Shown: piece by piece, positions 40,427-62,433 of the stretch
Layout of the letters: the number at the start of each line of letters is the position of its first letter
Position numbering within the stretch: position 1 is the first letter of the stretch
Origin: Tyzzerella sp.
GTDB lineage: Bacteria; Bacillota; Clostridia; Lachnospirales; Lachnospiraceae
Length of the DNA: 64,000 bases
Assembly (NCBI GenBank): GCA_017410145.1
Contig: JAFQRJ010000015.1
Coordinates: forward strand, 1 to 64,000
Reading direction: 5' to 3'
The notes under the pieces: generated by a model
Told to the model about the DNA's origin: nothing
The model's input: the letters and a program-made list of their open reading frames with translations, nothing else
Databases searched by the model: none
Translations under genes and position numbers: made by a program

Positions 40427-41182
40427 CTATTGTTTGATACCTTTATATGATCTTTGAACTTGATGGTAACTTTCTAGATTACCGATATCGTATCTTTTGC
40501 CAGGCATCTCCATAGCATGAACAGGCACTTGGTTACATAACCAAGCAATATAACTGCCTGGCGCATCCGTACCACAACCAGATTCAATCCCAAGATGGAT
40601 TAATTTTGCATCTGCTTTTGTATAGTAATAAAACGGAGGACAACACCAGTTAGATTTTGGATTGGTTGGTTTTTCTTCCATATCTAATATTTTATCGTTC
40701 TCATCAATAGTAACAACCCCACATTTGGTTAGTTTTGTATCATCAGCTTCATAGTATCGCATGATGCAAGAAGTATTCTTTTCTTTTGCATAGTGAACAA
40801 ATCTTGCTAAACTAAAGTCTAAAACATTATCCCCTGCGATAACGAGCATGTCATCGTCTAAATTTAATTGACTAATGGCAAATTGAATATCCTTCACTGC
40901 GCCAAGCCGGGTTTCATTTGTAGATGTCCCATCATCAACAATTGTTATATTTTGTTTCTTTTCTTTTGCCCAATTTTCGAAATGAGAGGCATATTTGTGA
41001 TTAGATATAACCACATATTCATCAATATACGATTTGGTATTTTCGCCTGTTGCTGAGTCAATATCATCTATCAGCCAATCGAGAATTGTTTTTTCACCAA
41101 CCGTAAGTAGTGGTTTTGGAAAGTTTTCTGTTAGTGGATAAAGCCGTGTAGCATAACCGGCTGCTAAAATTAAACATTTCAT
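40427..41182 (-). CDS. Sugar-1-phosphate nucleotidyltransferase
   Basis: 251 residues. The N-terminal signature LAAGYATRLYPLTENFPKPL is the nucleotide-binding motif of glucose-1-phosphate thymidylyl/cytidylyl-type enzymes. VIAGDNVLDFSLARF gives the metal-binding Asp, and VVTIDENDKILDMEEKPTNP follows. Single catalytic domain, no acyltransferase tail. It lies 21 bases downstream of a sugar kinase on the same strand, so kinase then nucleotidyltransferase would turn a free sugar into an NDP-sugar. The sugar and base are unknown. Confidence 0.83.
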   Translation of the reverse strand: MKCLILAAGYATRLYPLTENFPKPLLTVGEKTILDWLIDDIDSATGENTKSYIDEYVVISNHKYASHFENWAKEKKQNITIVDDGTSTNETRLGAVKDIQFAISQLNLDDDMLVIAGDNVLDFSLARFVHYAKEKNTSCIMRYYEADDTKLTKCGVVTIDENDKILDMEEKPTNPKSNWCCPPFYYYTKADAKLIHLGIESGCGTDAPGSYIAWLCNQVPVHAMEMPGKRYDIGNLESYHQVQRSYKGIKQ

Positions 41183-41203
41183 TTTCAGTCACTCCTTATG
41201 TAT

Positions 41204-42379
41204 TTATTCAAATTTTGCACCATCTGCACTTTCGCAGATATATACTGAATATTTTCCTTCGAGTTCAGGAAATTCTTTCAAGTATTCAGTTGAAACTTTC
41301 TTGATAATACTTTCTTCAAATTTCGGATCAATTAGGGCCATGCAACAACCTTTAAAACCAGCACCAGAGAAACGTCCGCCGTAGATGCCTTCGGTTTTTG
41401 TCATGATATCATATAAGGTTTTTAATTCTGGAGAACCCGTTTCCCAATTGTAAATTGAACTCCAGCCACTTTCAAAGGAAAGACGACCAAATTCTTCAAT
41501 ATCACCATTTCTCCAAGCTTCAGCCCCACGTTGCACACGGTCATATTCCGTATACCAATGTTCGGCACGTTTTGCCCAATTTTCTGGAAGCTTATCTTTA
41601 TATTTTAAATATATTTCATATGGTACATCACGAAGATTAGTTTCTTTAAATTTTCCGTATTCCATACCTGAATAAGCTTTTAATGCATAGGCTGCACTTC
41701 GACATTCATCTACACGCATATTAAACTTGCTTCCAGCAAGTGTTCTTTCGACGCCAGAGAAGAAAATGGCAATTTCATATGGTTTCATGTTTGGGTTAGT
41801 AGGAATTAATTCAAAGCTGTCATCAAGCATGTCCATATATAATAAATGGTCTTTTTGGCAATATACCTCGCAAGATTGGTCCAGTTTACCACATGACACC
41901 CCTACGTAATTGTTTTCTGCGGCCTTTGCAATTTGAATTATTTCATTTTTTTCGAGATGAATATTATTTAATTTGCAAAGGGCTGAGAGAAAAGTGATTA
42001 TTACAGCTGCTGATGATGACAAACCTCCAATTGGTAATTCACCATCAATGACACCACACATTCCTGTATTTATATTATATTTCTGTGCCAATGCGATTGT
42101 TGCTCCACGCAAATAATCGGCCCAATCGTTTTGTTTTGTTTTTGGTGTGGAGTTCACATGAAATTGTGCACGTTTATTGAATTGCAAGGAGGTTAGTTCT
42201 ATGATGCCATTTTGTTTTGGACCATATGCCATATGAATTCCTTTGTTTATTGCTAAACCAGTTATTTTGCCGAGCTGGTGATCTGAATGTGCCCCGAGTG
42301 GACAAATCCGGTATGGTGTAAACGCTACACTTAAAGGTTCGCGTTGGTATTGTTGCGCAAATATTTCCACGCATTTCAT
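41204..42379 (-). CDS. GHMP-family sugar kinase (galactokinase-like)
   Basis: 391 residues from ATG at 42379, preceded on this strand by AGGAGGAA; an upstream ATG at 42403 has no ribosome site. N-terminal CPLGAHSDHQLG corresponds to the galactokinase-type PGxHxD substrate motif. GELPIGGLSSSAAV is the ATP-binding GHMP motif and GRFSGAGFKGCCMALID is motif 3. It is probably a kinase for galactose, galacturonate, glucuronate or a related sugar. Forms a two-gene operon with the nucleotidyltransferase, opposite in direction to the polysaccharide genes. Confidence 0.82.
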   Translation of the reverse strand: MKCVEIFAQQYQREPLSVAFTPYRICPLGAHSDHQLGKITGLAINKGIHMAYGPKQNGIIELTSLQFNKRAQFHVNSTPKTKQNDWADYLRGATIALAQKYNINTGMCGVIDGELPIGGLSSSAAVIITFLSALCKLNNIHLEKNEIIQIAKAAENNYVGVSCGKLDQSCEVYCQKDHLLYMDMLDDSFELIPTNPNMKPYEIAIFFSGVERTLAGSKFNMRVDECRSAAYALKAYSGMEYGKFKETNLRDVPYEIYLKYKDKLPENWAKRAEHWYTEYDRVQRGAEAWRNGDIEEFGRLSFESGWSSIYNWETGSPELKTLYDIMTKTEGIYGGRFSGAGFKGCCMALIDPKFEESIIKKVSTEYLKEFPELEGKYSVYICESADGAKFE

Positions 42380-42440
42380 AAGTAACTTCCTCCTGACGTA
42401 CATTATTGGAATGTTAATTCCTCAAAAAGTAATTTAATAT

Positions 42441-45812: not shown

Positions 45813-46910
45813 TTGAAGAAGGTTTTAATGCTGACAGATCATCATGTTGACATGTATAATTGGAGACGAGAACTGATTTGCGATTTGCTAGATAGGGGGC
45901 ATGAAGTACATATAGCATTGCCTTACGGAGAAAAAGTAGAACTTCTAAAACAAATGGGTTGTATATATACTCCAATTTCAATAGAAAGAAGAGGAAAAAA
46001 TGTTGTTAAAGATGCATGTTTAATTCGAGATTATTATGCGTTGATTAAGAACTATAAACCTGATGTTGTTTTAACATATGGAACGAAACCAAATATATAC
46101 GGTGGAATTGTATGTTCAATATTAAAAACAGCATATATTGAAAATATTAACGGATTAGGAACAGGAATTACTACAGATACTAGTTTTTTTGAAATGTTTA
46201 TGCAGTGGCTATACAAATTTTCTTCGAAAAATGCTAAATGTGTATTCTTTCAAAATTCCTCGGATCAAAGATATTGTCTAGGGAAGAAGATTGTAACGAG
46301 TTATAATGAACTTCTTCCCGGAAGTGGAGTTAATTTAGAATACTTTAGTGCTTTGCCTTTTCCAAAGGGAGAACCAATTGTGTTTACTTACATTGCACGT
46401 ATTATGAAGGAAAAAGGGATAGAAGAATTCTTAGGAGCAGCTAAACAACTTACCGTAGATTATCCTGGGAAAGCGCAATTTCATATATTGGGTTTTTGCG
46501 AGGAGTCCTATGAAAAACAATTGGAAGAACTGCAGAATAGTGGAATTGTACAGTATCATGGTATGCAGAATGATGTTCGACCATATATTATGAAATCGCA
46601 TTGCATTGTTTTGCCTTCTTTTTATGGGGAAGGCATGTCCAATACTCTTTTAGAAAGTGCTTCTAGTGGTAGACCAATTATTACGACAAATCTCCCAGGG
46701 TGTGGAGAGACACTTGAGGATGGAGTTACTGGTTTTGTTGTTGAACCACGTAGCACAAAATCACTAATAGAGACATTAAAGAAGTTTATAGAAATGTCAA
46801 ATGATGAGCAAAGTGCGATGGGAATTGCAGGAAGAAGAAAAATGGAACTCGAATTTGATCGTAAGATTGTAGTGGAAAAATATTTGAATCGAATAGAGGA
46901 AGAAGAATGA
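45813..46910 (+). CDS. GT4-family glycosyltransferase
   Basis: 365 residues from TTG 45813, chosen because GGAGG at 45801-45805 lies 7 bases before it; a GTG at 45792 precedes that ribosome site. N-terminal MLTDHHVDMYNWRRELI, VLTYGTKPNIYGGIV in the acceptor domain, and the donor domain with FTYIARIMKEKGIEEFLGA and LPSFYGEGMSNTLLESASSG. Resembles capsule glycosyltransferases such as CapM/WbpX types. Overlaps the next gene by 4 bases. Confidence 0.87.
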   Translation: MKKVLMLTDHHVDMYNWRRELICDLLDRGHEVHIALPYGEKVELLKQMGCIYTPISIERRGKNVVKDACLIRDYYALIKNYKPDVVLTYGTKPNIYGGIVCSILKTAYIENINGLGTGITTDTSFFEMFMQWLYKFSSKNAKCVFFQNSSDQRYCLGKKIVTSYNELLPGSGVNLEYFSALPFPKGEPIVFTYIARIMKEKGIEEFLGAAKQLTVDYPGKAQFHILGFCEESYEKQLEELQNSGIVQYHGMQNDVRPYIMKSHCIVLPSFYGEGMSNTLLESASSGRPIITTNLPGCGETLEDGVTGFVVEPRSTKSLIETLKKFIEMSNDEQSAMGIAGRRKMELEFDRKIVVEKYLNRIEEEE

Positions 46911-48157
46911 TAAATTTATGGGCAGCTATGTATATAATAGCGTGGATGACTATGCCTTTTATGTCAATAGGGACTAGTTATAGAGTATTAGCAATAATTG
47001 CTACAATGATTTGGATACTGACTATTCGGAAAATAAATCCCCAAGTTTTTGTTAAGGCAAAAAACGTTATTGTGATAGGGATATTGTATTGTTGTCTGAC
47101 TTTCGGGGGTACTTTTCTACTTTTTGATTCTCTTTCAAAGGCGATTTCAGATACGGTTAATCCTTTTATAGTACTTATTGTCTTTCTTTTTTATTATGGC
47201 TATTATGGAACAATATTTTTTAAAAAAATTGTATATTTTAGTTTAGTGTGTTTCCTTGTGGTGGGTATCATGTCGGTTCGCCAGTTGTATATTGATCCAC
47301 GTGCAGCTAGGGATGCATATTTAACTTGGATGGAAGGAGAAGGGGCGGCATACACCACAATTGGAACATATGGCTTTATCATGTCGTCAGCATTAATGTG
47401 TCCAGTTTTACTTGCAGTGTTTCTAGTGAAGAAAATACAAGATGATTCGAAACTTTTTTTGGGAGTGGTATTAGCGATTTTGTTCATTATGGTGTTGATG
47501 TCAGGGTATACAATTGCGGTTATCACTATGACTGTCTCGTTTCTTGTTTTTGTTTGTGTGCATGACACTTCCACAAAGAAGAAACTTTTTGTGATTCTGT
47601 GTTGCTGTGTGTTGATTTTTATCTGGAAGCCGCTGGTAGAAAATGTTTTACTGTTTCTTATTGACGTTACCCGCGATAATGTTGTGTATAATGAACGAAT
47701 GAGGGAGTTATACCGCAGTTTAGTGTTGGGTTTGGAAGCCGTTGGAGATTTGGCAGCAAGGCAAAAAAGATACACAGCAACCATAAACGAGATAATTAAA
47801 AACCCCATATTTGGAGCGGCCATCTTGAAAGGACGTTATAATGGTGGTGGACACTCAGAGTATTTGGATACAATGGGTAGATTTGGATTGTTTTATTTTG
47901 CATGTAATATTTGGATTACTCTATTAAAACCATTAAAAAATGCGTATGCAAAAGAAACCAAAGCATTATGTTGGTGTTTTGGGATAGGTATGGTTGTCTT
48001 ATGTACGTTGGATACTTATTCATATGTGCAAATGATTGTTGCAGTAATTATATTACCTTATATAGCAGATATAGTAAAAAAAGGGAAAGCTGTTCGACTT
48101 GTTAATCGTGTAAGTAATCATAATAGATTTCAATGGCGGAGGAATTGGTTTGAATGA
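46907..48157 (+). CDS. O-antigen/capsule repeat polymerase (Wzy-like)
   Basis: 416 residues with ten or more membrane segments and a large central loop (DVTRDNVVYNERMRELYRSL and around), the usual layout of O-antigen polymerases, whose sequences are poorly conserved. NPIFGAAILKGRYNGGGHSE with LDTMGRFGLFYF resembles the conserved end of Wzy/EpsG-type proteins. Together with the flippase at 53777 this supports Wzx/Wzy-type assembly. Overlaps both neighbours by 4 bases. Confidence 0.75.
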   Translation: MINLWAAMYIIAWMTMPFMSIGTSYRVLAIIATMIWILTIRKINPQVFVKAKNVIVIGILYCCLTFGGTFLLFDSLSKAISDTVNPFIVLIVFLFYYGYYGTIFFKKIVYFSLVCFLVVGIMSVRQLYIDPRAARDAYLTWMEGEGAAYTTIGTYGFIMSSALMCPVLLAVFLVKKIQDDSKLFLGVVLAILFIMVLMSGYTIAVITMTVSFLVFVCVHDTSTKKKLFVILCCCVLIFIWKPLVENVLLFLIDVTRDNVVYNERMRELYRSLVLGLEAVGDLAARQKRYTATINEIIKNPIFGAAILKGRYNGGGHSEYLDTMGRFGLFYFACNIWITLLKPLKNAYAKETKALCWCFGIGMVVLCTLDTYSYVQMIVAVIILPYIADIVKKGKAVRLVNRVSNHNRFQWRRNWFE

Positions 48158-53776: not shown

Positions 53777-55309
53777 ATGGGAAAGAAAAAGGAAAACGGA
53801 AGAACTGCTAAGGTAATAATTAACACTCTAGCACAACTACTTCCGGAAATTGTTAACACAATCAGTGGGTTTGTGTTGCCGAGATTTATATTATTAACAT
53901 TTGGATCTGCCTTGACAGGTTTGGTTTCTTCCATAAATCAATTTTTAACATATCTTAGAAAAATGGAAGCGGGTTTATCGACTGCGTCGGCAGTAAATCT
54001 TTATAAGCCTTTGGCAAAAAAAGATGAAAAAAAAGTTCGTGAGGTAGTTGCTGCATCCAAACATTTTTATAGGTGGGTTGGTATTCTGTTTAGTATAGGT
54101 GCATGTATTCTTGCAGCACTCTATCCATTTATAGTGGATGTTAATATTCAAGGGTATAGTTGGTATAAAGTATCTACGTTAGTGCTTATTTTAGCAGGGA
54201 GTGCGGCTTTTAATTATTTTTTTTCATCAGCATATCAAGCATTATTGATTGCAGATCAGAGATACTATATTGTATCTATAAACATGACAGTATATGGCGC
54301 TTTGACAATACCGTTGATTTTACTTACTTTAAAAACGGGAAATATGTTGATTGTTCAGCTTGTGAATTTACTACTTGCGGTTGCACAAGCCGTGACATTG
54401 GTTTTTTATACAAAATGGAAATATAAAAATATGGTCAAACCGACAAAAGAGTTTGATAAAAAGAGCATGAATATGAGGTGGGATGTGTTCCTTAATGAAC
54501 TTGGATTTCTCGTAGAAACGAATGCGCCATCTCTTATCATAACTTTTTTGATAGGGTTATCTGCTGTTAGTGTTTATACAGTATATAACATGGTGTTTGT
54601 TGCTTTGCAGTCGGTGATACGAATTAGTCGTGAAGCATTAAGACCTGCATTTGGACAGGCATGGGCAGCGGGAGAGAAAGATGTTGTCAAGAAGTGTTAT
54701 GCAGAATTCGAGTGTCTAATTTTTGAAGCAACAGTCGTCCTCTACACAATTGCAGGTATTATGTTGTTGCCATTTGTTCGAATTTATACGGAGGGCGTGA
54801 CGGATGCTAATTATATATTGCCACTATTCGGGGTGTTTTTCTGCATGTCAGGGGCAATCCGACAATTGCAGATTCCTGCATCGATAATGGTAGGAGCAGC
54901 AGGAAAATTCAAGGAAGTACGTAGTTGCGTATTGGTTTCGGCACTTAGTTGTGTTGTGATAGGGGCTCTTGGAGGAATCTTTTTTGGTATGTCAGGTGTG
55001 ATGTTTGGTATGGTTTGCGGAACATGTATAAAGACTGCATATACCACCTATTTTATTAACAAAAAAGTTCTGGAAAGGAATTTGGGAACAACTATTTCTA
55101 GAGTGTTACGAGGTGGAGCAGTTGTTTTGATTAGTGTTGCTCCGTTTGTGTTAGGTATAAAACTTGTGCCAACTAATTTTATTGAGTGGATTTTACAAGC
55201 TGTTGGAGTGTCTGTATGGGTTTTAGGTGTTTCTATTATTAATCTTTTATTATTCGACCGGAGAGATATTTTGGGATTATGCAAACGCTTAATCAACGTC
55301 GTACGATAG
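53777..55309 (+). CDS. Polysaccharide flippase (Wzx-like)
   Basis: 510 residues with about twelve to fourteen membrane segments. TISGFVLPRFILLTFGSALTG near the start is typical of the polysaccharide transporter (PST/MOP) family. It would turn the lipid-linked repeat unit over to the outside for the polymerase. Starts immediately after the preceding stop codon. Confidence 0.85.
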   Translation: MGKKKENGRTAKVIINTLAQLLPEIVNTISGFVLPRFILLTFGSALTGLVSSINQFLTYLRKMEAGLSTASAVNLYKPLAKKDEKKVREVVAASKHFYRWVGILFSIGACILAALYPFIVDVNIQGYSWYKVSTLVLILAGSAAFNYFFSSAYQALLIADQRYYIVSINMTVYGALTIPLILLTLKTGNMLIVQLVNLLLAVAQAVTLVFYTKWKYKNMVKPTKEFDKKSMNMRWDVFLNELGFLVETNAPSLIITFLIGLSAVSVYTVYNMVFVALQSVIRISREALRPAFGQAWAAGEKDVVKKCYAEFECLIFEATVVLYTIAGIMLLPFVRIYTEGVTDANYILPLFGVFFCMSGAIRQLQIPASIMVGAAGKFKEVRSCVLVSALSCVVIGALGGIFFGMSGVMFGMVCGTCIKTAYTTYFINKKVLERNLGTTISRVLRGGAVVLISVAPFVLGIKLVPTNFIEWILQAVGVSVWVLGVSIINLLLFDRRDILGLCKRLINVVR

Positions 55310-55326
55310 TACATAAGGGAGATTTT

Positions 55327-56379
55327 ATGAAGAAGCGAATTTATTATTTCGACATATTACGTGTGATAGCAATGTTTATGGTCTTACTAAATCATACGAT
55401 TGCTTCAAATATTACAAATAGTAATTGCTCCGGTGGGGAAGCGATCTTGTGTTCCATTACGATGGTTATGTCTAGGCTGGGTGTGCCTATTTTCTTGATG
55501 TTGTCGGGTGCACTTAACTTAAAGAAAGGAAACAAGGTATGTCTAAAAACTTTATACACAAAACGAATTATTAGATTATTAGTGCCATTTGTAATATGGT
55601 CTTTCATATATTTTGTTTTGTATGATATAATAAGAGACGGTAATATGACAGCGACGGGGTTATTTTCTTTATTGTTTAGACCTGGAAATGCAGGACATTT
55701 ATGGTATATGTATGTAATTATAGCGTTGTTTTTAGTGTTGCCTGTTTTTCAAGCCATCATCGATAAATTAGAGAAAAGTCAGATCGAGTATATTCTTTTT
55801 GTATGGATTATTTCGTCAGGGATTCTCCATTGGATGAAAGAGTTGGAAATTATTCATATAGACTTTTATATCGATTTACATATTCTCAATGGGCTTTGGG
55901 GATATTTCTTGATAGGATGGTATTTGACAGAATTTGACTTTAACTTACCGAAAAAAAGAATAATAATTTTGGCGAGTTTACTATTTATGGTGTTAAGTGG
56001 CATGTTATGTTATCAGAAAATATCTATGCAAACTTTTTCTGATAGTATAGTAAGCTACTCTGGTGTGCCAATTATTTTACTGTCTGTATGTGTGTTCATG
56101 CTCGTAAAAATTAGAGGGGACATAACAATTGGTTGGGTACAAAAAAGTATAGAGTATTTATCAAAAATATCATTTTGTATTTATTTAAATCAATTTCTCG
56201 CCAGAGCAGTGGCGAGCGTACTGATTGGAAAAATTTTGAGTCAAGGGATCTGGGCAATGTTACTTGAATTTTTAATAACCACAGGAATATCAGTAGTATT
56301 TGCAACTATAATATATCATTTACCTGATAACCTTTTCGGGCGTGTAATAAAAAGCAGTTTAGGAATAGGAGATAAATAA
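55327..56379 (+). CDS. Membrane acyltransferase (acyltransferase 3 family)
   Basis: 350 residues from ATG 55327, with AAGGGAG upstream; the longer frame from 55279 is rejected. About ten membrane segments. N-terminal YYFDILRVIAMFMVLLNHTI carries the conserved R and H of the family, and GNAGHLWYMYVIIALFLVLP follows. Such enzymes O-acetylate (or similarly modify) surface polysaccharides from acyl-CoA. Confidence 0.87.
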   Translation: MKKRIYYFDILRVIAMFMVLLNHTIASNITNSNCSGGEAILCSITMVMSRLGVPIFLMLSGALNLKKGNKVCLKTLYTKRIIRLLVPFVIWSFIYFVLYDIIRDGNMTATGLFSLLFRPGNAGHLWYMYVIIALFLVLPVFQAIIDKLEKSQIEYILFVWIISSGILHWMKELEIIHIDFYIDLHILNGLWGYFLIGWYLTEFDFNLPKKRIIILASLLFMVLSGMLCYQKISMQTFSDSIVSYSGVPIILLSVCVFMLVKIRGDITIGWVQKSIEYLSKISFCIYLNQFLARAVASVLIGKILSQGIWAMLLEFLITTGISVVFATIIYHLPDNLFGRVIKSSLGIGDK

Positions 56380-58101
56380 ATGTATTCAGATATCAAAAGT
56401 GTGCAACTATTAGTAGCACTGTTGAAAGAACATGGAATCCGTCGAGTTGTTTGCTCGCCGGGGAACAGAAATGTACCAATTGTTCATTCTTTGGAGGAGG
56501 ATTCTTTTTTTGAAACATATTCTATTGTAGATGAGCGAAGTGCAGGTTTTTTTGGCATTGGACTTATCCAAAGATATCGAGAGCCTGTTGCTATATGTTG
56601 TACATCTGGAACAGCGGTTTGCAATTATTACTCTGCAGTGGTAGAAGCGTATTATCAGAAATTACCATTGCTGATTATTTCGGCAGACCGAAATCCGTAT
56701 TATCTGAATCAGGATGAGGAGCAGATGTTGCCTCAAACTGAAGGGTTTGAAAAAGTTACTAAAAAAATTGTTCAACTTCCTATGGTGAAAGATGAGGCAG
56801 ATGAATATATTTGTGCGCGAAAAATCAACGAGGCCATTTTGGAATTGAATCATCATGGGATGGGACCGGTTCAGATAAATATACCATTGGAGGCAAAGTT
56901 AGCACAGTTTCACACCGAAACACTTCCAGCGGTTAGAAAAATTCAAAGACATGAAAAAGATGAGTCTTGGAAGGAACTGGCAGAACTATTATATACAAAA
57001 AAGATTTTGGTATTATATGGACAAGCATCTCCTTTACAGGATGAAGACATTCATATTATTGAGAAATTCTCCAAGAGGTTTGATGCGGTTATTGCTACTG
57101 ACCCATTGGCAAATCTTTGTTGCGCAGGCACAATATCTACATTTCTATTGTCTAGAGTGTTAAACGCAGAGGAATTTGAAGAAATGTTATGTCCAGATAT
57201 CGTGATTACTTTACATAGCGGATATATGTCTTATGTTAGAAGTCATTTGAAAAGTTGTAAAAATCGAATTGTGCATTGGGCTGTAAATGAAAGTGGAACG
57301 ATAATTGATCCATTTATGAGTATTGAAAGAGTGTTTGAGATAGAATCAATCCAATTTATGAGTAAAATGCTATCTTATGAACTAGAGAGCAACAGTGATA
57401 ATACAAGCTATATACAGGAATGGCAGACGAAAAAAGAACTTTGCGACTCAAACAATGTAGACATACCGTGGTCGGATTTATATTTGGCTAAAGAGTTGAT
57501 ATCAGGAATACCATGCAACTCTAAATTACACCTTGCGAATAGTTCCAGTGTTAGATTAGCTGCACATTTTGATATTGATAAATCGATAGAGGTCTATTGC
57601 AACAGAGGTGCTAACGGAATAGATGGCTCTGCATCAGCTTATATGGGAATGGCACATGCAGCAGATGAACTATGCTATTTGTTAATAGGAGACCTGAGTT
57701 TCTTCTACGACATGAATTCTTTGTGGAACAATTATATTTCGTCTAATATGCGTATTGTACTCAGTAATAATGAAGGTGCAACGTTGTTTCACTATACGGT
57801 GGGAATTGATAATGTACCTTGTCTTGATAAGAACATTGCTGCCGAGCATAATGCCACAGCGAAAGGATGGGTTGAGTCAAGAGGGTTCAAGTATATCAAA
57901 GTTACAAATGAGGACGAATTAGAAGAAGCGATTCAAGTTATGGCAGATAGAACCTTGACATCACCAGTCTTTGTAGAAGTGTTTACAGATAAAGAGGAAG
58001 ATGCAAAGATTCTTCGTCAATTTTATGCAAGCATTCGCAAAGCGAATGGGTTATCCAATAGAGGTAATATATTAAAGAAAATATTAAAAACGGTGAAATA
58101 G
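56380..58101 (+). CDS. MenD-like thiamine-diphosphate enzyme in a polysaccharide locus
   Basis: 573 residues, MenD length and architecture. Seen: VVCSPGNRNVPI, VDERSAGFFGIGL, CCTSGTAVCNYY and ISADRNPYY, with NSSSVRL and NRGANGIDGSASA near 385-420. The ThDP/metal motif runs from GDLSFFYDMNSL (about residue 437) to VLSNNEG. From memory of E. coli MenD, residues contacting the 2-oxoglutarate-derived part (Ser/Arg in NSSSVRL) are kept. SRS of MenD is NRN here, and a Lys-Arg pair at the acceptor side is not intact. No other menaquinone gene is nearby. Probably joins a two-oxo-acid-derived unit to a non-isochorismate acceptor. Confidence 0.75.
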   Translation: MYSDIKSVQLLVALLKEHGIRRVVCSPGNRNVPIVHSLEEDSFFETYSIVDERSAGFFGIGLIQRYREPVAICCTSGTAVCNYYSAVVEAYYQKLPLLIISADRNPYYLNQDEEQMLPQTEGFEKVTKKIVQLPMVKDEADEYICARKINEAILELNHHGMGPVQINIPLEAKLAQFHTETLPAVRKIQRHEKDESWKELAELLYTKKILVLYGQASPLQDEDIHIIEKFSKRFDAVIATDPLANLCCAGTISTFLLSRVLNAEEFEEMLCPDIVITLHSGYMSYVRSHLKSCKNRIVHWAVNESGTIIDPFMSIERVFEIESIQFMSKMLSYELESNSDNTSYIQEWQTKKELCDSNNVDIPWSDLYLAKELISGIPCNSKLHLANSSSVRLAAHFDIDKSIEVYCNRGANGIDGSASAYMGMAHAADELCYLLIGDLSFFYDMNSLWNNYISSNMRIVLSNNEGATLFHYTVGIDNVPCLDKNIAAEHNATAKGWVESRGFKYIKVTNEDELEEAIQVMADRTLTSPVFVEVFTDKEEDAKILRQFYASIRKANGLSNRGNILKKILKTVK

Positions 58102-58104
58102 ATT

Positions 58105-58923
58105 ATGAGATTATTCAAGGAACGAATTGTTTTAAAACAGAAGACAGTATATGTTGAGGTAGAACAACGAAAACGTTTCGCAGATTATGTTATTCTAATA
58201 ACAGGGGCTTCAGGTTCTATAGGGAGTGCTATTGCACAACGATTTGCTGTTGAAGGTGCTACTGTAGTTTTAACAGGAAGAAATCTATCTAAATTACAGG
58301 ATGTAAAAAATCAAATTAGTTGCAGCACCCAAATAGATGTCTGTCAAATGGATGTGACAGATGAAGCAAGCGTTTCAAATGCAATGAAAACAATTTCGGA
58401 CAAGTATGGTCGCATAGATATGCTAATTAACAATGCAGGATTTAGTGCACGTACTGTCAAACAACCATTACATTTGCAAACCATAGATAACATTGATAAT
58501 TTATTGCAAACGAATCTTAGAGGTTCCATACTTACTTCGCGTGAGGTTGTGCAATACATGCAGAATTCAAAACAAGGGCGCATTGTAAACATTGCATCCA
58601 TTGTCGGATTGCAGGGTAAAGATAAGCACGCTGAATATGCTGCAGCAAAAGCAGGAGTTTTTGGTTTGATGAAATCGCAAGCAATTGGGGTGGGCAAATA
58701 TGGAATTACCGTTAATTGTGTATCGCCTGGCCTTGTGCCAAGAGAAGACGCATCGGAAGAAAAACTGGCGCGGTTTGAGCATATGAATCGATTAAACTCA
58801 ATTTGTACACCGGAAGATATTGCTAATGCGGTTGCTTTTTTGTGTTCGGCAGAAGCACGTTATGTTACGGGACAGAATTTATGTGTCGATGGTGGACGAA
58901 GTTTGGGATTGTATGGAGATTAG
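58105..58923 (+). CDS. Short-chain dehydrogenase/reductase
   Basis: 272 residues. The Rossmann motif VILITGASGSIGSAIA comes after an unusual about 28-residue N-terminal extension rich in charged residues. NNAG (about residue 112), catalytic Ser in VNIASIVG and Tyr-x-x-x-Lys in EYAAAKAG are all present, so it should be an active NAD(P)-dependent enzyme. It starts 3 bases after the MenD-like gene and has no good ribosome site, suggesting translational coupling. It probably reduces the ketone made by the MenD-like enzyme; this is inference. Confidence 0.83.
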   Translation: MRLFKERIVLKQKTVYVEVEQRKRFADYVILITGASGSIGSAIAQRFAVEGATVVLTGRNLSKLQDVKNQISCSTQIDVCQMDVTDEASVSNAMKTISDKYGRIDMLINNAGFSARTVKQPLHLQTIDNIDNLLQTNLRGSILTSREVVQYMQNSKQGRIVNIASIVGLQGKDKHAEYAAAKAGVFGLMKSQAIGVGKYGITVNCVSPGLVPREDASEEKLARFEHMNRLNSICTPEDIANAVAFLCSAEARYVTGQNLCVDGGRSLGLYGD

Positions 58924-58952: not shown

Positions 58953-60038
58953 ATGAAAATCGGTATATTAACCTTTTTTGAATCAGATAATTATGGAACA
59001 GTCTTGCAGGCTTACGCATTGCAAGATTATCTTCAATCCATAGGGCATCACGTGACTTTACTTCACTTTAAACGTAATATAAATGCAACATCATCTTATT
59101 TTAAAGAAGAAGTAAAAGAATATACTTTAAAGCAACGCATAAAAAATCGCATCGTCATGGAAATGACAGCTAAGGCGAGAGAGAAGAAGAAAGAAGAGTT
59201 TAAAAAGTTCCGTAATGAACACTTGAATATTTCTTCAGTTTGTTATGAGACGGGAGAAGACTTTTTAAAGGATGCTGAAAAATATGATTTGTTGATTAGT
59301 GGGGGAGACCAAATTTGGAATCCTTACCATAAATCATTTTCATTAACTTATATGTTTGATTTCTTGCCGGAAAAATATCCACGCATATCTTATGGGTCTA
59401 GTTTTGGAATCGAAAGATTGGAAGATAAAACAATATTAAATGATATGAGTGTTGCTTTGAAGAAGTATGATAGTATATTGGTCAGAGAATCGAGCGGAGT
59501 CAATATTGTAGAGCAGATGGGATTGCATGCCCAAAAAGTTCTTGATCCTGTCTTTTTAAATGCAGAGAGGTGGAAAAGGTTCATTAAAAAGGAAGCACCT
59601 ATAAAAGGGAAATATGGCATTGTATATGCGCTTGTTGATTATAATGAAAAATCGAATAAAGTGATTCAAGATTATATAAAAAAAGATAACTTAAAAATGG
59701 TTGTTTTTCCTGATAATCGATGGAATTGTATCAGTTCTTATAAAAAGAAGTTTGGGTTGTCTCCAATTGATTTTTTGAATTATATTGCACATAGTGAAAT
59801 AGTCTTCACGAACTCTTTTCACGGGTTGGCGTTTGCAACTTTGTTTCATAAGCAAGTTGTTTTATTAGAGCCGCTCTCATTAGAAGCAAATAGCAAAAGA
59901 AATCGATTAGAGGATTTATTAAAACTATTCAAAATAGAAGGGACAATTGATTACAAAAAAACAGATGTTATTTTAAATAATCAAATTAATGAGTCTCAGA
60001 ATAAATTGATACAAGCTATTGAAAAAGTACAGAAGTAA
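58953..60038 (+). CDS. Polysaccharide pyruvyl transferase family protein
   Basis: 361 residues. KIGILTFFESDNYGTVLQAY at the start, LLISGGDQIWNP, ISYGSSFG and a C-terminal FTNSFHGLAFATLF motif fit this family, which transfers pyruvyl from PEP to sugar hydroxyls as ketals. AAAGGAG precedes the ATG. Pyruvyl groups would add negative charge to the polymer. Confidence 0.87.
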   Translation: MKIGILTFFESDNYGTVLQAYALQDYLQSIGHHVTLLHFKRNINATSSYFKEEVKEYTLKQRIKNRIVMEMTAKAREKKKEEFKKFRNEHLNISSVCYETGEDFLKDAEKYDLLISGGDQIWNPYHKSFSLTYMFDFLPEKYPRISYGSSFGIERLEDKTILNDMSVALKKYDSILVRESSGVNIVEQMGLHAQKVLDPVFLNAERWKRFIKKEAPIKGKYGIVYALVDYNEKSNKVIQDYIKKDNLKMVVFPDNRWNCISSYKKKFGLSPIDFLNYIAHSEIVFTNSFHGLAFATLFHKQVVLLEPLSLEANSKRNRLEDLLKLFKIEGTIDYKKTDVILNNQINESQNKLIQAIEKVQK

Positions 60039-60082: not shown

Positions 60083-61168
60083 ATGAAAGAAATGATGAAT
60101 GTTAATGGAAAGACCATTTTAATCACAGGGGCAGCGGGCTTTATCGGCTCAAATCTTGTTTTAGAATTATTAAGGACTAATGCAGGTGTTCATATCATTG
60201 GATTGGACAGCGTGAATGATTATTATGATGTTTCAATAAAGGAATATCGCTTGAATCAGATTGAACAATTGGCATCCAAAACACAAACTTCAACATGGTG
60301 TTTCATTCGAGGTAATATAGCAGATAAAGTGCTTATTGAAGATGTGTTTGATACATACAAACCAGATATTGTTGTCAATCTGGCAGCGCAAGCTGGAGTT
60401 CGTTATAGCATTACAAATCCTGATGCTTACATAGAGGCAAACTTGATTGGATTCTATAATATTTTGGAGGCATGTCGCCATTCTTATGATAATGGTGAAA
60501 AGGGCGTGGAACATTTGGTTTATGCTTCCAGTTCTTCAGTATATGGTTCAAATAAAAAGGTACCATATTCTACAGATGATAAGGTAGATAATCCGGTATC
60601 TTTATATGCAGCAACGAAGAAGAGTAATGAACTCATGGCTCATGCGTATTCAAAGTTGTACAATATTCCATCTACGGGATTGAGGTTCTTTACAGTGTAT
60701 GGTCCTGCCGGACGTCCGGATATGGCATATTTTGGTTTCACAAACAAATTAATCAAAGGTGAAACAATTCAAATATTTAACTATGGAAATTGTAAGCGCG
60801 ATTTCACTTATGTAGATGATATTGTTGAAGGTGTTAAGCGAGTCATGCAGGCTCCACCGCAGAAGGGAAATGGTGAGGACGGTTTACCATTACCACCATA
60901 TGCAGTGTATAATATAGGAAATAGTCATCCAGAAAACTTGTTAGATTTTGTGGATATACTTCAACAAGAATTAATTCGAGCGGATGTGTTACCAGAAGAT
61001 TATGACTTTGACGCACACAAGGAATTGGTCCCAATGCAACCGGGAGACGTTCCAATAACTTATGCTGATACCAGTGCGTTAGAGAAAGATTTTGGGTTTA
61101 AACCAGCCACAAGTTTGCGAGACGGTTTGCGAAAGTTTGCTGAGTGGTATAAAGAGTTCTATATGTAG
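60083..61168 (+). CDS. UDP-glucuronate 4-epimerase-like enzyme
   Basis: 361 residues. Extended SDR with [11 protein letters not shown] near the start, [17 protein letters not shown], active-site Tyr-Lys in [11 protein letters not shown], and [18 protein letters not shown], the pattern of UDP-GlcA to UDP-GalA epimerases. The UDP-glucose dehydrogenase downstream supplies UDP-GlcA, so the repeat unit probably contains galacturonic acid. AAGGAAGG lies before the ATG. Confidence 0.87.
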
Positions 61169-61191
61169 AATGTTTTTTGGAGGATATAAAT

Positions 61192-62433
61192 ATGAGTGGT
61201 TACAAGATTGCTGTTGCAGGGACAGGATATGTAGGATTGTCTATGGCAACATTATTGGCACAACATAATAAAGTGACAGCTGTAGATGTGGTTTCTGAAA
61301 AGGTTGATTTAATTAACAACAAAAAATCACCGATTCAAGATGATTATATAGAGGAATATTTAGCAACGAAAGAACTTAATTTAGTTGCAACGCTAGATGC
61401 AAAGTCTGCATACTCTGATGCTGATTTTGTCGTCATTGCTGCTCCGACAAATTATGATAGTAAAAAGAATTATTTTGACACATCAGCAGTGGAAGCAGTT
61501 ATCAAGCTTGTTATGGAATACAACCCAAATGCGATTATGGTAATTAAATCAACGATTCCTGTAGGTTTTACAGCTGGTATAAGAGAGAAGACTGGTAGCG
61601 AAAACATCATTTTTAGTCCTGAATTTTTAAGGGAGTCAAAGGCTCTTTATGATAACCTTTACCCATCGCGTATTATCGTAGGAACGGATATGAACAATCC
61701 GCGTCTAGTAGATGCGGCACATACTTTTGCTTCGCTCTTGCAGGAGGGAGCCATAAAAGAAGATGTAGATACATTGTTTATGGGATTTACGGAAGCAGAA
61801 GCGGTCAAATTGTTTGCTAATACATATTTAGCTCTTAGAGTATCTTATTTTAATGAATTAGATACTTATGCAGAGATGAAAGGATTGGATACAAGACAGA
61901 TTATCGATGGTGTTTGCCTAGATCCACGTATCGGCAGCCATTATAATAATCCTTCATTTGGATATGGAGGATATTGTCTTCCAAAAGATACTAAACAGTT
62001 GCTTGCAAATTATGAAGATGTTCCGGAAAATTTAATAGAAGCGATTGTTGAGTCTAACCGCACTAGAAAAGACTTTATTGCAGATAGAGTTTTAGAAATG
62101 GCAGGTGGTTATGAGGCAAATAGCTCCTATGATGCAAATAAGGAAATAGAAGTAGTTGTTGGTGTGTATCGTTTAACAATGAAAAGTAATTCTGATAATT
62201 TTAGACAGAGTTCTATTCAAGGAGTTATGAAACGAATTAAAGCTAAAGGCGCCAAAGTAATTATTTACGAACCGACACTTGAAGATGGAAGTACTTTTTT
62301 TGGAAGTTTGGTTGTGAACGATCTTGAGAAATTCAAGGAAAAGAGTGCGGCAATTATTGCGAATAGATATGATAGTTGTCTTGATGATGTTTGCGATAAA
62401 GTTTATACTAGGGACCTTTTTAGAAGAGATTAG
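61192..62433 (+). CDS. ugd: UDP-glucose 6-dehydrogenase
   Basis: 413 residues from ATG 61192, with GGAGG 8 bases upstream; an upstream in-frame ATG at 61177 precedes that site. [15 protein letters not shown] is the NAD-binding start, [13 protein letters not shown] the substrate motif, and [15 protein letters not shown] holds the catalytic cysteine. Oxidises UDP-glucose to UDP-glucuronate. It pairs with the epimerase just upstream. Confidence 0.92.

Follow-up and report, generated by a model that had tools for sequence, protein, structure and literature searches.

The MenD-like gene and its immediate neighbours

The stretch of DNA analysed here (the window, 64,000 nucleotides, positions 1 to 64,000 of contig JAFQRJ010000015.1 of assembly GCA_017410145.1) comes from Tyzzerella sp., a member of the Lachnospiraceae. 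Within a polysaccharide locus it carries a gene for a thiamine diphosphate (ThDP) enzyme resembling MenD of menaquinone biosynthesis (56380..58101, + strand, 573 amino acids (aa)), which was recognised both as an open reading frame (ORF) and by its match to the menD model. A gene for a short-chain dehydrogenase/reductase (SDR; 58105..58923, +, 272 aa), whose product contains the motifs TGASGSIG and YAAAK, starts 3 bp after it. Next comes a gene for a polysaccharide pyruvyl transferase (PSPT; 58953..60038, +; PF04230, 117.8 bits), and directly upstream of the MenD-like gene lies that of an Acyl_transf_3 acyltransferase (55279..56379, +). An earlier note, made from the sequence alone, had described a MenD-like ORF followed 3 bases later by an SDR, between an acyltransferase and a pyruvyl transferase, and every element of that arrangement is present. 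The MenD-like enzyme probably has a part in making an unusual acid side chain of the surface polysaccharide.

The protein scored 282.4 bits against the NCBIfam menD model TIGR00173 (curated cut-off 244.2) and no more than 44 bits against acetolactate synthase models. In the available genome of this organism (67.8% complete) its gene is the sole menD match above cut-off. Other menaquinone genes were sought in 15 genomes, namely its own, that of a genus mate (99% complete) lacking the gene, and those of 13 other carriers of homologues from the same family; neither menB nor isochorismate synthase was found above cut-off in any of the 15, the organism's own genome being about 68% complete. Matches below cut-off, seen for menB in 5/15 genomes and for isochorismate synthase in 11/15, are likely to be crotonases and anthranilate-synthase relatives, respectively, and the genus mate and the organism itself gave no match to either model at E <= 0.001. 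The distribution of the gene is patchy: at E <= 1e-20 the window protein has homologues in 14 of the 299 genomes of the family, the organism's own included. In this setting the window protein is unlikely to be a menaquinone enzyme. The earlier note had remarked that no other menaquinone gene was in sight, which for menB and isochorismate synthase holds across the 67.8% of the genome available, and its proposal of a role outside menaquinone synthesis is supported.

Relatives and phylogeny

A scan of genome contigs matched at least 589 stretches, among which there were 580 relatives. The best 80, together with 14 neighbourhoods from genomes of the family and the window, made up a set of 95 loci (L-numbers below), whose neighbouring genes were labelled with hidden Markov models built in this analysis and with the E. 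coli men proteins. Loci having at least one of menB, menC, menE or menF within six genes of the MenD-like gene were assigned to class M, those without a men gene and with a PSPT or the flippase Wzx to class P, and all remaining ones to class U. After L048, which has no MenD-like ORF, was dropped, the 94 loci comprised 53 M, 36 P and 5 U. Nearly all M loci belong to Bacteroidota and show the menF-D-B-C-E layout, whole or partial; one is from Desulfovibrio (L098). Judging by record titles, the P loci are spread over Lachnospiraceae and other Clostridia, Bacteroides and other Bacteroidales, Draconibacterium, Bifidobacterium and Clostridium, and over metagenome-assembled genomes of Streptococcaceae, Kiritimatiellae and Coriobacteriaceae.

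In a quick tree of 94 rows, which included 35 of the 36 P and 52 of the 53 M sequences, P formed one group against M (SH-aLRT 100). A second tree, built with more care from 56 hand-picked rows (29 of the 36 P, 26 M) and with E. coli MenD as the outgroup, supported the P clade at 100/100 and separated P plus 23 M sequences from three other Bacteroidota MenDs at 99/99. Because the clade is nested among men-operon MenDs at this support, sequence comparison places its single origin within the Bacteroidota-type menaquinone MenDs. The closest M relatives are MenDs of the Tannerellaceae/Proteiniphilum type, with weaker support (93/87), and the exact point of attachment is less sure than the monophyly because E. 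coli MenD is a long branch. Both kinds of gene can be found in one organism: Bacteroides faecis MAJ27 has a single M gene (L068), and its P genes lie in two different polysaccharide loci (L061 and L146, the latter outside the trees and called P from its residues and neighbours).

A phage origin of the clade was considered and rejected, as none of the 24 stretches matched in a scan of viral contigs was a relative by tblastn. A tblastn search of plasmids gave 12 records, of which three were examined. Plasmid pRUMAL01 of Ruminococcus albus 7 is of the polysaccharide type, with a PSPT, a flippase, a 'thiamine pyrophosphate-binding protein' and a nicotinamide adenine dinucleotide (NAD)-dependent epimerase family protein; among the three there are also one record with a men operon and an Azospirillum menD without adjoining men genes. 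Under the name of Pseudomonas fluorescens plasmid pZL222, record NZ_CP100662.1 (L144) has a men operon along with a yteA family sporulation protein and glgP, and looks like a misassigned Bacillus contig.

Active-site residues

Residues are given in E. coli MenD numbering, and their equivalence to B. subtilis positions was established by alignment. Counts refer to 34 P rows (one fragment and one duplicate left out) and 53 M rows. According to two sources, Arg32, Arg106 and, with a small effect, Lys299 of B. subtilis MenD face isochorismate, Arg409 and Arg428 hold 2-oxoglutarate, and Ile489, Phe490 and Leu493 line the pocket (PMC2914249, PMC12312563).

The window protein keeps the equivalents of E55, Q118, R33, R107, S391, R395, R413 and F475, and has lost K292, I474 (now Leu), L478 (now Thr) and S32 (now Asn). 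Its S391, R395 and R413 equivalents make up the complete 2-oxoglutarate set (Arg409, Arg428 and the Ser405 equivalent of the B. subtilis enzyme), so the earlier note was right that the residues holding the 2-oxoglutarate-derived intermediate are kept. The two isochorismate arginines (B. subtilis Arg32 and Arg106) are retained as well, each of them being present in 21/34 P sequences. The window protein lacks the residues typical of MenD at Lys299 (Lys, or Arg instead, in more than 90% of MenDs) and at Ile489/Leu493.

The loss of the acceptor lysine separates the two classes completely, Lys292 being found in 53/53 M and 0/34 P sequences. Since the 'SK' motif around it is distributed in nearly the same way (53/53 M, 1/34 P), this is not merely an alignment shift, and the Lys-Arg pair is indeed not intact, as the earlier note had it. 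Its description of a change from SRS to NRN was correct in that the acceptor side is altered, but the functional Arg is retained, and the exchange of the second Ser for Asn is normal in the men-operon MenDs compared (50/53). Ile474 is also invariant in M (53/53), and 20/34 P sequences have Glu in its place; 'LP' in the closing loop occurs in 39/53 M and in 0/34 P sequences. Glu55 and Gln118 are kept throughout P.

Within the clade, nine of the 34 sequences, that of the window included, keep Arg413; all nine also have Ser391, Arg395, Arg33 and Arg107, and none has Glu474. Among the 25 that lost Arg413, Glu474 is present in 20, Ser391 in three, Arg395 in 23, and Arg33 and Arg107 in 12 each. Such a residue pattern suggests a split of the clade by donor, one part using 2-oxoglutarate and the other a substrate that lacks a distal carboxylate.

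The C-terminal tail past a common point is on average 44.7 residues long in P and 19.1 in M (31 of the 36 P, 53 M), and the net charge of the last 25 residues in the same sequences is +5.3 (range -1 to +9) and +0.5 (range -5 to +5), respectively. The helical amphipathicity of the tails is slightly above that of shuffled sequences and of men-operon MenDs (mean z 1.4 versus 0.95); because this evidence is weak, we do not claim membrane tethering by the basic tails and mention it as a suggestion only.

Taken against its parent group in the phylogeny, the Bacteroidota-type MenD (2-succinyl-5-enolpyruvyl-6-hydroxy-3-cyclohexene-1-carboxylate (SEPHCHC) synthase), the clade thus shares the fold family by sequence, the ThDP motif, the catalytic Glu and Gln118, and its window member both 2-oxoglutarate arginines and both isochorismate arginines. 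It differs by the replaced acceptor Lys (in the window also Ile474 and the closing-loop Leu), by a longer basic C-terminal tail, by its polysaccharide partners and by having no men genes nearby.

Pyruvyl transferase and reductase partners

Partners were counted over 35 P loci, one identical pair being taken as a single locus. A PSPT is fused or adjacent to the MenD-like gene in 18/35 loci, within two genes in 30/35 and within five in 32/35. When a random other gene of the same runs was chosen instead (20,000 draws), a PSPT lay within two genes in 10.1 loci on average and in 21 at most. As a control we used 20 loci, selected manually from 119 Wzx (PF01943) matches in 40 genomes of the same family; the genomes from which they came lacked a MenD-like gene, and the frames measured 457-512 aa. 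Within about 16-19 kb, a PSPT was found in 2/20 of these loci, and PF04230 at E <= 1e-8 over the control genomes revealed no further PSPT inside the control stretches and one 1.8 kb outside.

In three loci the partnership takes the form of a single protein: PSPT-MenD fusions of 925 aa (L083) and 1093 aa (L029), and a fusion of Fe-S/FrhB, PSPT and MenD parts of 1299 aa (L092:7712-11611), the end of which is overlapped by an SDR gene. The FrhB domain of the last may be an electron source for a reduction step. In L030, too, a fragment of the FrhB type is located between the PSPT and MenD-like genes. In four genomes of the family (G024, G011, G005 and G007), PF04230 matches lie within open frames of 607-911 aa, which suggests that fusions of PSPT to other domains are not rare in the Lachnospiraceae.

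The phosphoenolpyruvate (PEP)-binding Arg and His of the window PSPT are R178 and H290. One Arg and one His are conserved in 31/31 rows of P-locus PSPTs, and so are, in 30/30 with one row gapped, an Asn and a Gly close to the N-terminus. A profile built from 17 PSPTs, of which 16 belong to P loci and one to R. albus, matches Pvg1p (5ax7) with an E value of 2.3e-6, and the conserved Arg and His align to its R217 and H339 (numbers obtained by counting in the alignment and from PMC10435577), which according to that source correspond to R148 and H308 of CsaB, the residues that bind PEP there. As these residues are kept in all 31 rows, the partner PSPT probably still uses PEP. It shares PF04230 and the PEP-binding pair with CsaB, WcfO and Pvg1p, and differs from them in its association with, or fusion to, a MenD-like enzyme.

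The window SDR has the classical Rossmann TGxxxGxG and YxxxK motifs. The first of these is at residue 33, behind an extension whose first 20 residues have a net charge of +2. The additional N-terminal segment pointed out in the earlier note is therefore real, and it is common to 18 of 19 distinct P-locus SDRs, in which about 32-51 residues precede the Rossmann motif (16 by motif, two by eye); the SDR beside the L092 fusion is the exception. The net charge of the first 20 residues ranges from 0 to +7 among the P-locus SDRs. A classical SDR is found within three genes in 19/35 P loci and directly adjacent on the same strand, with a gap of -4 to 42 bases, in 18/35, so the pairing of MenD and SDR is recurrent in polysaccharide loci. 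In L028 and L037 the SDR adjoins a split copy: there, a second MenD-like copy next to the intact one is divided into N-terminal and C-terminal ORFs (L028:6826-8666, L037:10804-12433), and these are either decaying duplicates or split proteins. Other reductases among the 35 loci are three of the aldo/keto type, one of the GFO/IDH/MocA type and three extended SDRs of the GGTG type (one a fragment).

The distances of MenD-like proteins and SDRs co-vary (rank Mantel 0.38, p 0.001, 19 loci), and those of PSPTs and SDRs do not (-0.07, p 0.77, 18 loci). Together with the value of 0.11 for MenD and PSPT, this suggests that MenD and SDR move as a unit; the PSPTs appear to be of diverse descent, as though matched to differing sugars. 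The flanking acyltransferase, a neighbour named in the earlier note, was not supported as a constant partner: it is less constant than PSPT, being found within two genes in 2/35 loci by a small model of three sequences that may undercount.

Proposed mechanism

From the gene partnership described above, we consider it very probable that this MenD paralogue acts together with the PSPT and a reductase in polysaccharide decoration. The reaction of MenD itself is the attack of an acyl carbanion, bound to ThDP, on the C=C bond of an alpha,beta-unsaturated acid. Enolpyruvyl ethers are acids of this kind too, and so the MenD-like enzyme could extend one if the PSPT made it. We infer the substrates, step order and product of such a route as follows. 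The PSPT would move the enolpyruvyl group of PEP onto a hydroxyl of a lipid-diphosphate-linked sugar. The MenD-like enzyme would then decarboxylate a 2-oxo acid on ThDP and join the resulting acyl carbanion to the enolpyruvyl double bond, in a 1,4 (Stetter-type) addition to the alpha,beta-unsaturated acid like that of MenD on isochorismate, and the SDR would reduce the newly formed ketone. The S391/R395/R413 set kept in the window protein suggests 2-oxoglutarate as the donor, which would contribute its C4 unit; the predicted product is an ether-linked 2,4-dihydroxyheptanedioic acid (or lactone), a seven-carbon dicarboxylic side chain. Relatives without the donor arginine may use pyruvate or a similar 2-oxo acid and would make 2,4-dihydroxypentanoic acid ethers.

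The proposed logic is that of MurA/MurB, in which an enolpyruvyl ether on a sugar is likewise processed to an ether-linked hydroxy acid, the reduction by MurB following enolpyruvyl transfer; the protein families are different, and the MenD-like route would have an extra C-C bond-forming step. CsaB and WcfO pyruvylate lipid-diphosphate-linked sugars (PMC6801904). A review records 2,4-dihydroxypentanoic acid 2-ethers in the O-antigen of Providencia alcalifaciens O31 (PMC10609480), and the pyruvate-donor variant would give exactly this 2-ether.

A MenD neofunctionalised for surface-polysaccharide assembly through this PSPT-enolpyruvyl, Stetter and reduction route is the best explanation overall that we can offer, a possible one whose probability is well short of even. 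Its detailed chemistry is tentative. The same caution applies to the wider idea of an undescribed glycan decoration by C-C bond formation, in which a ThDP 'Stetterase' with split donor types extends an enolpyruvyl ether prior to reduction and which would explain the Providencia ethers; we regard it as speculative.

A number of observations weigh against this explanation. Three of the 35 P loci lack a PSPT among the five genes on either side (L031, where it is six away, L034, at a contig edge, and L042), and L042, a basal member with full flanks, has none within 10 kb on either side. The tree-defined clade member L044 (class U, starting at a contig end) also has no PSPT; it is counted here because the presence of a PSPT or Wzx was part of the definition of class P. 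In 9/35 loci, several of them at contig ends, there is no counted reductase within three genes (eight have no labelled candidate, and L114 has a CapD-like protein only), and the reductase family varies among subclades. The three fusions belong to one clade, for which one fusion event is enough; they are not three independent events. Co-evolution of MenD and PSPT was looked for and rejected, as the rank Mantel value of 0.11 (p 0.10, 31 loci) shows no co-variation beyond the background of MenD and Wzx (0.11, p 0.046, 24 loci). The three pyruvyl transferases that the sources call functionally characterised make ketals, not enol ethers (PMC6801904, PMC10435577), and an open enolpyruvyl ether from a PSPT would be a departure from the characterised enzymes. 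Finally, we know of no polymer structure for any P locus.

Alternative explanations

The missing co-variation of PSPT and MenD-like proteins, and the wide variation of acceptor residues inside the clade, would fit an enzyme that acts on some other acceptor, such as pyruvate, a pyruvyl ketal or the aldehyde of a lipid-linked intermediate, with reduction afterwards and the PSPT serving the same repeat unit in a separate step. The PSPT-MenD fusion and the very frequent proximity of the two genes favour linked steps, and this explanation seems to us doubtful, if worth keeping in view. An unlikely alternative is a small-molecule route, in which 2-oxoglutarate is converted to succinic semialdehyde (or ligated to a small acceptor), reduced by the SDR to a hydroxy acid, e.g. 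4-hydroxybutyrate, and attached as an acyl group. It would suit the full set of donor residues in the window protein, the acyltransferase directly upstream, and the co-variation of MenD with SDR and not with PSPT. It leaves the PSPT association unexplained, however, and the acyltransferase is rarely near (the 2/35 loci mentioned above, with a possible undercount by the three-sequence model) and absent next to the gene in L039, the closest relative; no acyl-activating ligase was found among the eight window proteins scanned with Pfam.

The earlier note pointed to YerE-type chemistry, in which an acyl unit is added to the ketone of a nucleoside diphosphate (NDP)-4-keto sugar and the side-chain ketone of the resulting C-branched sugar is reduced by the SDR. 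YerE and ErwE share with our module the combination of a ThDP carboligase and a reductase within a polysaccharide locus, which is how genes for C-branched sugars are laid out, and the chemistry of these enzymes is established (PMC12247030). By score, however, the window enzyme belongs to another ThDP branch, MenD (282 bits) and not acetolactate synthase (at most 44), as judged by models and not by the YerE sequence itself. Its donor site is of the MenD type and its partner is a PSPT; keto-sugar dehydratases did not stand out as constant among the labelled neighbours, where epimerase-like proteins and dehydratases were not classified singly, and both the PSPT association and the fusion would go unexplained. 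YerE-type chemistry thus looks less likely, and we hold it to be rather improbable. The general idea of that note, a carboligation followed by a reduction, stays the best general reading, with the PSPT, and not the acyltransferase, as the most constant partner.

The gene could also be a true MenD misplaced in a polysaccharide locus and still producing SEPHCHC for menaquinone. This accords with a TIGR00173 score above the curated cut-off, with a position nested in the MenD phylogeny and with the conserved R33 and R107. The earlier note had itself named what would speak for it: a place inside true MenD with all acceptor residues conserved, and no other menD in a genome that has the rest of the pathway. 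The phylogenetic position is as described there; the acceptor Lys is lost, menF and menB were not found (isochorismate synthase and MenB above cut-off in 0/15 genomes, the own one 68% complete), B. faecis has a separate men-operon menD, and the whole clade stands in a polysaccharide context. On residues, context and paralogy we reject this explanation as highly improbable.

Novelty and significance

No description of the MenD-like polysaccharide clade was found among the papers listed in a literature search, judged by title and abstract opening, in which subscription papers were largely outside the scope and which does not prove absence. The word MenD is absent from the available portion of a 2025 review of tertiary-alcohol-forming ThDP enzymes (PMC12247030). 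The case for a MenD offshoot of single origin, present in several phyla and with a defined gene partnership, is strong at the level of the family and tentative at that of the chemistry. Since family models score the clade genes as menD, bacteria that have no menaquinone pathway may be annotated with a piece of it. The module, for which many of the records are of gut or rumen origin, seems to produce side chains of glycans through C-C bond formation; we did not find such a step described in the literature searched. The route offers a testable biosynthesis for a rare component, the 2,4-dihydroxypentanoic acid ethers, and the ThDP enzymes of the clade, with their natural diversity of donors and acceptors, may be useful biocatalysts.

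Other features of the locus

Upstream of the acyltransferase gene the locus encodes a Wzx-type flippase (53777..55309, +; PF01943 match at 53807-54661, 41.4 bits) and a candidate polymerase, a Wzy_C/O-antigen-ligase-like membrane protein (46907..48157, +; 23.5 bits, under the Pfam cut-off of 31.7). The PSPT gene is followed by a gene of the NAD-dependent nucleotide-sugar epimerase/dehydratase family (60083..61168, +), perhaps a uridine diphosphate (UDP)-glucuronate 4-epimerase in view of the dehydrogenase gene after it, which we take from its sequence to encode a UDP-sugar dehydrogenase-like protein (61177..62433, +). Judging by sequence, the locus presumably also encodes glycosyltransferases.

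Downstream of the window, on the same contig (L022:774-14420, about 64-77 kb), there is a second polysaccharide cluster that has PSPT-like and Wzx-like genes of its own, identified by similarity to the window genes, and no MenD-like gene. Inside the window, 40427-42403 (-) holds what we assume to be a gene pair for a GHMP/galactokinase-like protein and a sugar nucleotidyltransferase. The pair recurs at L039:13706-15609, beside the MenD-SDR-PSPT triad of the nearest relative, and possibly represents an unusual sugar-activation pathway.

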